Shown here one piece after another: positions 1,073 to 4,191 of a stretch of DNA of 25,738 nt. The translations under genes and the position numbers were made by a program. Origin of the DNA: a virus. Location of the stretch: positions 1 to 25,738 of the IMG/VR virus record IMGVR_UViG_3300027972_000047; one strand, 5' to 3'. Numbering within the stretch: position 1 is the first letter of the stretch; each line of letters starts with the position of its first letter. The notes under the pieces were generated by a model. The model searched no databases. It had not been told where the DNA came from and saw only the letters and a program-made list of their open reading frames with translations.

Positions 1073-1660
1073 ATGCGATTCATTCTGAAAGGAACGGCGA
1101 GGGATGGGCATGGGCAGATAATTTCAAGTGCCACGGTGAGTGTTTATTTGGCGGGGACCACGACGGTTGCTTCGGTGTATGCGGCATCTGCCGGTGGGAC
1201 TGCGGTGAACTCAGTCACTTCTGGAACGGACGGTTCGTTCACGTTATATGTTGATGATTCGGATTACTATCAATCTCAGAAGTTCAAGGTGACGGTATCT
1301 AAAACCGGATACACGAGTAAGACTTACGATGATGTGGTCATTTTCGCTCTGGGACAGGCGACGGTGAAGACTGCTTTGCCTTCGGATGGTGCCGGGGAGA
1401 ACGGTGATTTTGCCATCGTTGAGACAACGGACAACCATCAGTTCGCGTGGCAAGCCGGGGATGTATGGTACACCAGCGGCAGGGCGGAGATTCTTGCTGC
1501 GGTTCCTTCTGCGGGTACGGGGACTAACGGGGAGATAAGGATCATCGAAGCAACCGGCCTTCATGCGATAGCATGGAAAGCCGGGGGTGCGTGGTATGTG
1601 TCCATAGGAGGCACGACAGAAGGTTCTGCCGGTAATTACTCTTGGGAGTCGAGTCTGTGA
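1073..1660 (+). CDS. Beta-rich repeat protein (virion decoration or fibre-like) between the terminase genes
   Basis: A 195-residue protein. Residues about 1-92 resemble a carboxypeptidase-regulatory-like or transthyretin-like beta-sandwich as found at the base of phage fibres (LKGTARDGHGQIISSATVSV, then GTDGSFTLYV). The rest holds two diverged copies of one unit at residues about 101-135 and 143-177: compare NGDFAIVETTDNHQFAWQAG with NGEIRIIEATGLHAIAWKAG, each followed by a WY pair. AGGAG stands six bases before ATG 1073. The stop overlaps the GTG of the terminase gene as GTGA. It is probably displayed on the virion, but the position between small and large terminase is unusual for such a protein. 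Confidence 0.7.
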   Translation: MRFILKGTARDGHGQIISSATVSVYLAGTTTVASVYAASAGGTAVNSVTSGTDGSFTLYVDDSDYYQSQKFKVTVSKTGYTSKTYDDVVIFALGQATVKTALPSDGAGENGDFAIVETTDNHQFAWQAGDVWYTSGRAEILAAVPSAGTGTNGEIRIIEATGLHAIAWKAGGAWYVSIGGTTEGSAGNYSWESSL

Positions 1661-4191
1661 CCGAGATTGAAGGCATAGCGGGTTGGGAGGGGATGTTTTC
1701 GTACAAGCCCACTCAGGTATTGAAGTGGCTTTTAACGAGTCCCTGTAAGATCACCTGCATATTTTCCGGCAACCAATTTGGAAAAAATGAATGTTTATCA
1801 GCACTTACGTTAATAGATACTCCTGAAGGGAAATTCACAATGGAGTATTTATATAATAGAAGGATGCCATTTGAAGTTTATTCTTGGGATGGGGACAAAA
1901 TCGTTAAAGCAAAAGCATCAAAACCTTTTAAGAAAAGTGGTGGTAAACGCTTATGTTATAAAATTACAATGGCTAATGGTCAGTGGGTAGAGGCATCTTC
2001 TGAGCATCGTGTTTTAACAACTTCTGGTGATTATATTTCTGTCGGCACCTTATACGATTTTTTTCGCGGTTCTCCTCAGGAGAAAGTTTACGAGAAATAT
2101 TATAAGATTGCTGACGAACCCTCCCATCGGGAGTCCATTTTGGGATTTTTCCCTTCAATTCAGTTCGAAGATGTTCTGCATTACTTGAAAAGAGTATTAG
2201 GTTTTCTAGGTTGTTGTTTTCACGATTTCCATCTAAATGGTGGACAACCTCTTGGGGGAGGAGGTAGCGAGACAGTTTTCTTTCGATTATTAAACGATGT
2301 TCGGCAACATATTTACCGCCATGTACTGCAAAAGGATGTTCTGGATAGTAAATATGCCAGTATCCAGAAATTAGTATGCGGCCTCCTTTCCATCCTGTGT
2401 GTTTATCACCGGAACGTGGTCCGGTTCTTTGAGTCTTTATTGCCAGTTTTTTGCATAGGTACTCTATCGTATACAGGGGTACATCAAAATATTCAGCGAC
2501 TTCCCATTGTCTCAAACCTTCTTTCTCAATCATATAGATTAGTTTCTGATGATCGACTTTTCCCGAAGATTTCATACGCTCCTCCTTTAATATTTGATGG
2601 TAATAAAGTTATTAGCATCGAAATGGTTGCAAGTCAAGAAGTATATGATATGACCGTTGAAAAATATCACAACTATCTTGCGGGTGGTTTAATTCACCAT
2701 AATTCAGTTGCGATGGATCAAATCTTCTCTATCTTGGGAACGCACCCTAACGTGAACAAACGTGTAAGGCCCGAAGACACCATCAGGACGTTCAGGTTTG
2801 CCTCTCAGACCCTCCCCGGGGAGAAGGAAGAGGATGAAGTCAAGAACACCCAATACCCCGCGTTCAAACGAAGGCTACCGGCTAATCTTATCGAGAAAGA
2901 GATCACGCAGAGAAAACCAACCTTAACGGTGAAGACTCCTGATGGCGGGAACGTACAGATAGAATTTGTGAGTTTCCAACAGGATGTTCAATCCGGTGCC
3001 GGTGTCCAGAGGAAGCGGATATGGATAGATGAGGAATGTACAAGGGATTTCTACGAAGAGCAGATCCCGAGGCTTCTTGCGGCGGATGGGGATATTGTGT
3101 TCACCTTTACTCCTGTCCCCGGCGCGATAGGTTGGGAGTTTGACGAACTCTACGAACGGGCGAAGATCATCTACCGGACCCCTGCGGTACGACAGCGGAT
3201 TAAAGAACGCTACGGAGAGGACTACCCCGAATGTCAGATAACCAAAAGCAAAGATGACATCTGCGTTATCATGGCGGCTACGGATGACAACCCTGTTTAC
3301 GAAGAGGTGGCACGGAAGCGAAGCCTTCATACCGGGATAAAGATCACGGCGAAAGAATACATCGATTCCATGTTCAATATGTATGACGATGAGGACGTTA
3401 TCGATGCTCGAAGATATGGGTTGTTCAGACAGCTTTCCGGCAAGATCCACAAGTCGTTTTGCGCGACACATATATTAAAGGAAGAGGTTTACTTCCCCGA
3501 AGGCATTCCAACCGAGTGGAAACACTATCGTGGGATCGACTATCATCAGTCTAACCCTTGGGCGTGTGTATGGCTCTCTTTAAGCCCTCAGGACGAGATA
3601 TTTGTATGGGACGACTACGCCCCCTCCCCCCAAAGGATGATAACCTACGACATAGCAGAGAACATCGCCCGAAGGAGCCATGACTTCAGATATGTGTTTA
3701 ACATGATTGACCCGAACGCTTCCAATAGGCAGCCGAATACGAATTTAACCACCATAGACGACCTGAATAGAGCCTTTATGGACTTCCGAACCAGGGGACT
3801 ATGTAATGGGGGTCACTGGCAAGCATGGGATACCCACGGTGGTCGCGGCAGGGAAGAACTGACTAAAAGACTGATAAATTCCGTAAAAGTGGGCAAGCCG
3901 TTCAATAATAAGGTAGTTTCAGAGGGTCGTGCGGTATATCTCCCGACAATTTGGTTCACCCAGAACTGTAAAAACACGATTGAAAGTCTGAAAAATTGGC
4001 GTTTGGAACAGTGGTCTTCACGGGAATCTCTTTCAAAAAACGATCCAAGGGAAAAGACGCAGATGAGGTGGTCGCATTTTCCTATTTGTATAGAATGTAT
4101 GCTCAAGTCGCCCCTTCTGTCCCTTGCCAAATGGGGGAATCTGGATGGGACACCGTTGAGGCCGAAACTTTATGCTTCAGGAAGGAATTAA
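1657..4191 (+). CDS. terL: Terminase large subunit, interrupted in its P-loop by an intein
   Basis: The packaging motor: ATPase plus headful or end-cutting nuclease. The precursor is 844 residues and the predicted spliced protein 540, normal for TerL. Walker A is GNQFGKNE (residues 38-45), cut by the intein after the Glu; N follows the Lys where Ser/Thr is usual. Walker B is RIWIDEE (Asp at spliced residue about 154), followed by the coupling motif FTFTPVPG. The RNase-H-fold nuclease has the first Asp in RGIDYHQSNP (about 324) and the second in MIDPNASNR (about 381). The C-terminal RWSHFPICIECMLKS region stays in frame. GTG 1657 has GGGAG eight bases upstream and overlaps the previous stop; TTG 1642 is in frame but unsupported. 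Splicing should be required for activity, because the intein splits the ATP-binding loop. Confidence 0.93.
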   Translation: MTEIEGIAGWEGMFSYKPTQVLKWLLTSPCKITCIFSGNQFGKNECLSALTLIDTPEGKFTMEYLYNRRMPFEVYSWDGDKIVKAKASKPFKKSGGKRLCYKITMANGQWVEASSEHRVLTTSGDYISVGTLYDFFRGSPQEKVYEKYYKIADEPSHRESILGFFPSIQFEDVLHYLKRVLGFLGCCFHDFHLNGGQPLGGGGSETVFFRLLNDVRQHIYRHVLQKDVLDSKYASIQKLVCGLLSILCVYHRNVVRFFESLLPVFCIGTLSYTGVHQNIQRLPIVSNLLSQSYRLVSDDRLFPKISYAPPLIFDGNKVISIEMVASQEVYDMTVEKYHNYLAGGLIHHNSVAMDQIFSILGTHPNVNKRVRPEDTIRTFRFASQTLPGEKEEDEVKNTQYPAFKRRLPANLIEKEITQRKPTLTVKTPDGGNVQIEFVSFQQDVQSGAGVQRKRIWIDEECTRDFYEEQIPRLLAADGDIVFTFTPVPGAIGWEFDELYERAKIIYRTPAVRQRIKERYGEDYPECQITKSKDDICVIMAATDDNPVYEEVARKRSLHTGIKITAKEYIDSMFNMYDDEDVIDARRYGLFRQLSGKIHKSFCATHILKEEVYFPEGIPTEWKHYRGIDYHQSNPWACVWLSLSPQDEIFVWDDYAPSPQRMITYDIAENIARRSHDFRYVFNMIDPNASNRQPNTNLTTIDDLNRAFMDFRTRGLCNGGHWQAWDTHGGRGREELTKRLINSVKVGKPFNNKVVSEGRAVYLPTIWFTQNCKNTIESLKNWRLEQWSSRESLSKNDPREKTQMRWSHFPICIECMLKSPLLSLAKWGNLDGTPLRPKLYASGRN
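1973..2575 (-). CDS. HNH homing endonuclease encoded antisense inside the intein
   Basis: A 200-residue protein, the only convincing minus-strand gene here. Residues about 19-45 form a helix-turn-helix (LRQWEVAEYFDVPLYTIEYL), and residues about 61-138 the HNH nuclease of phage homing enzymes: GYWHIYYPEHPF, then YVAEHRLIIERKL, then EVVHHLDGNRENNNLENL with a final His in NAEHLR. ATG 2575 is preceded by AAAGGAGG five bases away, an almost perfect ribosome binding site. The last 25-30 residues are antisense to the intein's own N-terminal splicing domain and look like an accidental extension to the TAG at 1973-1975. It presumably cuts intein-free terminase genes at the P-loop and so spreads the intein. 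Function is inferred from the family; strand and motifs are seen directly. Confidence 0.92.
   Translation of the reverse strand: MKSSGKVDHQKLIYMIEKEGLRQWEVAEYFDVPLYTIEYLCKKLAIKTQRTGPRSGDKHTGWKGGRILISGYWHIYYPEHPFAVHGGKYVAEHRLIIERKLSRYLLPQEVVHHLDGNRENNNLENLILFSSNAEHLRTELKGKIPKWTPDGRVRQQSYNISRKLSPEENREKNRIRCRQKYNHQKLLKHDAQKMPLPTDH
2581..2588 (-). promoter_or_regulatory. Strong ribosome binding site of the antisense HNH gene
   Basis: The minus strand reads AAAGGAGG here, with five bases (AGCGT) before ATG 2575. On the + strand the same bases encode the Pro-Pro-Leu just before the C-terminal splicing domain. So good a site in the right place argues that the antisense frame is translated as a free protein. 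Confidence 0.85.
2609..2637 (-). promoter_or_regulatory. Promoter-like sequence for the antisense HNH gene
   Basis: On the minus strand, TTGACT (2637-2632; five of six against the sigma70 -35 consensus) is followed by a 17-base spacer and TAATAA (2614-2609; three of six against the -10 consensus), with an extended -10 TGC directly before it. A transcript would start near 2602, giving a leader of about 27 bases with the ribosome binding site inside it. The promoter lies wholly within the codons of the C-terminal splicing domain. The -10 match is weak, so this is a candidate. Confidence 0.5.

Follow-up and report, generated by a model that had tools for sequence, protein, structure and literature searches.

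An intein in a phage terminase with a putative homing endonuclease gene nested on its opposite strand

The window analysed here is a whole stretch of 25,738 nucleotides from a virus record in IMG/VR (IMGVR_UViG_3300027972_000047, positions 1 to 25,738), in which an open reading frame for the terminase large subunit TerL (1642-4191, plus strand) is interrupted by an intein within its Walker A motif (GNQFGKNE|S). In tblastn searches the frame matches terminases annotated in cultured phages, and Pfam Terminase_6N scores above cutoff for L015, a natural intein-free homologue of the window terminase. The intein comprises 304 residues (1792-2703, plus strand), is free of stops throughout and carries class-1-type motifs, with all of the residues expected of a class 1 intein in place: Cys1 (TGT, 1792-1794), the block B histidine His72 (2005-2007, in SSEHR), the penultimate histidine and terminal asparagine (His303-Asn304, 2698-2703) and Ser+1 (2704-2706), together with His293 in block F, all on the plus strand. 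The block B motif reads SSEH and not TxxH. Cys1, the block B histidine and the His-Asn pair are invariant in an alignment of 28 sequences. The NCBIfam models intein_Nterm (6.8e-8) and intein_Cterm (4.3e-5) both match above cutoff, Pfam Intein_splicing matches with a value of 1.8e-10, and the coordinates and residues given for a complete set of splicing motifs by an earlier reading of the locus, made from the sequence only, were confirmed without exception.

The HINT splicing domain of this intein is divided into an N-terminal half (approximately residues 1-95, 1792-2076, plus strand, placed by AlphaFold2 and Foldseek) and a C-terminal half containing blocks F and G (2590-2703, plus strand, placed by the intein_Cterm model and AlphaFold2). 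Between them lies an insert (2107-2586, plus strand) which is open in the intein frame, free in its amino-acid sequence and predicted to be mostly disordered. In the AlphaFold2 model of the window intein the HINT halves mostly exceed a pLDDT of 90 and most of the insert falls below 50, and the best Foldseek matches of the HINT model are solved mini-inteins (6frh, 3.3e-7; 4kl5, 5.5e-7), as the fold of a class 1 intein demands. No endonuclease domain was found by Pfam in the insert when it is read in frame. A split or fractured intein was considered and rejected, the host gene being one continuous reading frame and not two.

On the minus strand, a gene for an HNH_3 endonuclease of 200 amino acids, with an ATG start and a TAG stop, runs antisense to intein residues 61-262 (1973-2575). 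The protein matches Pfam HNH_3 above cutoff (1.8e-8, residues 93-132) and PHROG HNH (2.6e-22). It consists of a helix-turn-helix (HTH) region (residues 9-43, 2447-2551, minus strand), with helices predicted at residues 9-18, 23-30 and 34-43, and an HNH catalytic domain (residues 66-139, 2159-2380, minus strand) with the pattern EHR...VVHH.DG.......N..NL..F..N..HL. The residues of this catalytic motif show little or no variation across an alignment of 44 sequences, and the window protein qualifies as an HNH_3 domain with its motif intact. Its AlphaFold2 model, for which two phage-record sequences were left out of the alignment, is confident, with a mean pLDDT of 87.8, and shows an N-terminal three-helix HTH region joined to an HNH core. 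Foldseek returned no significant match for this model, with a weak one to I-HmuI, and its non-significant matches include many HTH DNA-binding domains. The proposal of a complete minus-strand HNH endonuclease with an HTH was thus borne out by HNH_3, PHROG and the predicted helices. The accompanying proposal that the gene exactly fills the slot in which inteins usually carry their endonuclease holds only in part: the slot is occupied, but the overlap extends further. Because the gene spans intein residues 61-262, the C-terminal tail of the HNH protein (1973-2076, minus strand) lies opposite block B and the remaining N-terminal HINT half, facing essential block B codons including that of His72. 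Double coding therefore reaches inside the essential splicing domain. In one relative (L003, 3983-4516) the HNH stops in frame before the C-terminal tail that is kept opposite block B in other members.

A strong Shine-Dalgarno sequence, AAAGGAGG (2581-2588, minus strand), lies 5 nt upstream of the HNH ATG in the window, and a promoter-like site, TTGACT-17 bp-TAATAA with TG at the extended -10 position (2609-2637, minus strand), lies inside the DNA coding for block F. The window promoter-like site is modest in comparison with the much stronger sites of relatives, which include the near-consensus TTGACA-18-TATAAT (L058) and TTGACA-17-TATACT (L085 and L107). For the evaluation of such signals across 55 non-redundant lineages (HNH clusters at 80% identity), the HINT-C codons upstream of the HNH start were replaced synonymously according to the codon usage of each contig. 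A sigma70-like antisense site was stronger than this null in 30 of the 55 lineages at p<0.05 (combined z 15.9), and the Shine-Dalgarno score upstream of the HNH in relatives was likewise above it (z 10.3). Measured against this synonymous background, putative antisense promoters and Shine-Dalgarno sequences are enriched beyond what coding for the intein explains. Several lineages (L048, L054, L057, L073, L075, L086, L092, L093, L094 and L096) have no Shine-Dalgarno sequence and a -10 element whose end lies 6-11 nt upstream of the ATG; their HNH mRNA may therefore be leaderless, an inference which depends on the assignment of the start codon.

When the window HNH alone was used as a query against IMG/VR, seven further loci (L003-L009, some of them near-identical to one another) were found in which an open terminase intein carries the HNH on its antisense strand, and the weakest matches of the same scan (L010-L013) did not have the antisense-in-intein arrangement. 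A scan of IMG/VR with an HNH alignment gave 492 relatives, of which the best 80 were kept; all 80 were antisense in an open frame with intein motifs, none was on the same strand, and the codon phase was identical in every one. With three IMG/VR scans pooled, the HNH is antisense in an open intein frame in 164 of 164 classified loci, and in none does the HNH form the in-frame endonuclease of a canonical homing intein. Some of the 164 loci are one contig counted twice. The loci were chosen by HNH similarity and not by an open intein frame, and the sample is not random: the queries were themselves antisense HNHs, and some 410 lower-ranked members of the 492 are outside the count. The insertion site in the IMG/VR family is the terminase Walker A motif. 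A rule-based assignment of insertion points over 85 loci gave the form G(N/Q)R|SGKT in 52, GNRxGK|T in 25 and GNQxGKxE|S in 2 (the window and L030), and left 6 unassigned; the rule for the first class relies on the +1 side, since a partial match of the N-terminal model leaves the upstream boundary in doubt. In GTDB genomes (one scan, with alignment A5), nine distant HNH relatives were found and none was flanked by an intein motif.

Carriers of the antisense-HNH intein number in the hundreds and are mostly uncultured phages. Close HNH relatives are also present in nine cultured-phage records (tblastn), and the arrangement was confirmed directly in Ymer, Taid, Setonix and PHS3, the other records resting on the tblastn match only. 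In the Pseudoalteromonas phage PHS3 (KX912252; L027, 1056-3179) the open frame is a longer TerL with an intein; the deposited annotation treats the HNH as an ordinary gene and places the start of the TerL CDS (1053-2228) within the intein stretch. In Ymer the P-loop junction is VAGFG|TGKS. In this Pectobacterium phage and its relatives (L025, 2492-3190) the HNH gene is unannotated and the intein-bearing TerL is a "hypothetical protein", and the paper describing the Ymer genus makes no mention of an intein or HNH. Double coding explains why gene finders lose one of the two partners, leaving the HNH unannotated in the Ymer group and TerL truncated in PHS3. Two further loci (L079 and L085) have, within the same terminase and towards its C terminus, a second HINT-like domain (host residues ~700-1090), and no HNH was found on the strand opposite these second stretches. 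Same-strand inteins in a different phage gene (L022, 2599-6420; L024, 3461-6139) were set aside as a different system; this gene holds several such inteins and frequent in-frame stops, with HNH-like pieces in L022, and the recurrence of the stops suggests a recoded stop codon.

In all members tested, position 2 of the intein codon lies opposite the wobble position of the HNH codon, and the number of stops expected in the intein frame can be estimated by synonymous shuffling of the HNH. Across the 55 lineages no intein-frame stop was observed against 384 expected (7.0 per gene); for the window gene (represented by an identical sequence, L029) shuffled versions had a mean of 6.2 stops and none of 400 was stop-free. 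In this geometry a Phe in the HNH with Ile, Met, Thr, Asn or Lys directly after it forces a stop in the intein frame. One of these five residues comes after 0 of 131 Phe in antisense HNHs, as against 25% after other residues, and after 18 of 71 Phe in 18 free-standing relatives (Fisher p 1.4e-9), which have 2-17 stops in the corresponding phase. Among close pairs, dN/dS is mostly 0.06-0.3 in the HNH frame and mostly 0.5-5.5 for the intein-frame insert read from the same bases, whereas the HINT halves, mostly below 0.2, are under strong purifying selection; pairs with only few differences were uninformative. The absence of intein-frame stops together with the relaxed dN/dS of the insert indicates that its amino acids are free and its openness is constrained. 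Selection maintains both strand readings at once, namely the amino acids of the HNH on one strand and the HINT blocks with a stop-free insert on the other.

Antisense reading frames opposite genes are common, and one copy (L123, 2992-3708) has an in-frame stop which breaks the HNH frame with the intein frame still open, so decay does occur; L123 is a candidate for the decay stage of a homing cycle. The possibility that the antisense HNH is merely a spurious or decaying shadow of the intein nevertheless deserves almost no credence. Chance is ruled out by the shuffling, dipeptide and dN/dS tests, the codon-level purifying selection refuting it for the family, and the match to HNH_3, the catalytic motif, the confident predicted fold and the enrichment of Shine-Dalgarno and promoter signals also speak against it. 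A remnant or pseudogene is likewise ruled out for the family, with one decayed HNH (L123) noted. Degraded relatives with stops in either frame, which would have refuted the sequence-only reading, are the opposite of what was found. Conversely, the HNH might be real and the plus-strand intein non-functional, either as an open insertion or as a dead mini-intein sheltering a selfish gene. In favour of this, the HNH belongs to a wider family with the out-of-frame HNH of ShiLan, whose insertion lacks splicing motifs (PMC11855218). However, we consider it highly improbable given the invariant splicing residues, the selection on the HINT halves and their predicted mini-intein fold, as well as the position of the element in the Walker A motif of an essential ATPase, including in phages grown on isolates in culture (PMC11445585).

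Evidence for lateral movement comes from inteins which are more alike than the genes that carry them. The inteins of L034, L036 and L037 are 97-98.5% identical, against 76-84% for the flanking terminase DNA on either side; those of L064 and L071 are 99.0% identical with flanks at 76-87%. In these pairs extein dS is approximately 1.2-1.9 as against 0.02-0.05 for the HNH. Near-identical inteins in diverged terminases indicate a recent lateral transfer whose limits coincide with the ends of the intein. Relatives L015, L016 and L020 have precise empty sites, consistent with in-frame insertion at the conserved Walker A site, and spread into empty alleles is in this way supported, if indirectly. HINT and HNH distances are correlated (r 0.66), as expected if the intein and the HNH travel as a unit, and both also track the extein (r 0.51 for HINT and 0.59 for HNH).

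The arrangement could have arisen through many independent backwards insertions of an HNH into inteins or through a single ancient event. Three P-loop insertion points, very divergent terminases and the abundance of free-standing HNH_3 genes in phages are compatible with the former. On the other hand, the codon phase is the same wherever tested, even though free-standing relatives show that another antisense phase would be easier to keep open, and the HINT and HNH distances go together. On the HNH tree the label needs to switch between antisense and free-standing only twice, one switch being due to L010, a free-standing sequence on a very long, rogue branch inside the antisense group; the remaining 18 rows that are not antisense in an intein, ShiLan included, form one group (SH-aLRT 95). 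Repeated insertion is accordingly thought unlikely, though it keeps more weight than any other alternative discussed here. The uniform phase makes one ancient origin likely and, together with the tree, probably favours a single origin without proving it. The earlier suggestion that the endonuclease gene landed backwards stands in so far as the endonuclease has a gene of its own, read from the other strand; as inferred from the single codon phase and the probable single origin, this is an arrangement both old and shared rather than a one-off event.

The fractured genes reported by Dassa and colleagues in 2009 are said to have an intein split in two, with an endonuclease gene standing free between its parts. 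Like them, the window element places endonuclease and splicing domain on separate polypeptides; unlike them, its host gene is continuous, consistent with cis-splicing, and shares its DNA with the endonuclease gene, which is read from the other strand. Canonical homing inteins, for example the TerL inteins of mycobacteriophages, have an in-frame HNH or LAGLIDADG domain (PMC5050341). They share with the window intein the HINT catalytic residues, sites in the ATPase or P-loop of TerL, an endonuclease placed between the two parts of HINT, a patchy distribution and lateral movement, but the window endonuclease is a separate opposite-strand gene with its own putative promoter and ribosome-binding site, and the precursor insert is mostly disordered. 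The ShiLan-type insertion in phage DNA methylases contains a hidden out-of-frame HNH and, according to its authors, no splicing domain (PMC11855218). Its HNH is homologous to the window family, similarly overlaps a frame kept open through the host gene and shows homing-like spread. However, it is on the same strand as its host gene, whereas the window HNH is antisense and accompanied by a complete splicing domain, so the window element is not of this type. Nuclear rDNA group I introns L2066 have antisense homing endonuclease genes (PMC9548176), which are independently expressed within a self-splicing element, as is inferred for the window HNH; this is however a eukaryotic RNA intron with a His-Cys nuclease, and its sense strand needs no open frame because it sits in non-coding rRNA. 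None of these closest published systems unites an intein with an antisense endonuclease. The literature searched did not describe any intein with an endonuclease on its antisense strand, in agreement with the initial impression that there was no precedent, although a 2025 preprint on actinobacteriophage inteins of 'non-canonical architecture' might overlap.

Taken together, the locus is, with high confidence, a mobile intein that interrupts a phage TerL within Walker A and whose homing endonuclease is a separate, antisense nested gene, with splicing and cleavage inferred. The plus strand would be translated as TerL-intein-TerL, an order evident from the anatomy, and the two ordered HINT halves around the stop-free insert would excise themselves and restore the ATPase. 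From the minus strand, the statistically supported promoter and ribosome-binding site would allow the HTH-HNH protein to be made. This protein may then cut TerL genes that lack the intein, within the P-loop, and the break would be repaired by copying the entire element, both intein and endonuclease gene, in keeping with the lateral movement seen in sequence comparisons. The anatomy, double selection, antisense signals and lateral movement are observed; splicing, antisense expression, cleavage of the empty P-loop and copying through repair are inferred in the absence of splicing, expression or cleavage data. The idea of splicing and mobility as the work of two uncoupled polypeptides was supported by every test run, within the same limits. 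The conservation of an antisense promoter within the terminase gene also raises the possibility that the unit mainly regulates the terminase, through antisense RNA or transcriptional interference delaying a late gene, with homing secondary. This appears very unlikely, as the HNH protein sequence is conserved and not the promoter alone, and as the element moves laterally, which homing explains directly.

With more reserve, we lean towards the view that the family is a class of homing inteins that is large, arose once and has so far gone undescribed, one where opposite-strand coding is obligate and a promoter within the HINT codons would let the HNH be made independently of the late terminase, for example before it. 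As cultured phages carry the element, splicing, antisense expression and homing can be tested together. It is one of the clearer examples in nature of antisense double coding over a long stretch, with approximately 200 codons on both strands and selection measurable in dozens of lineages, and it breaks with the textbook picture in that the endonuclease of a homing intein need not be an in-frame domain.
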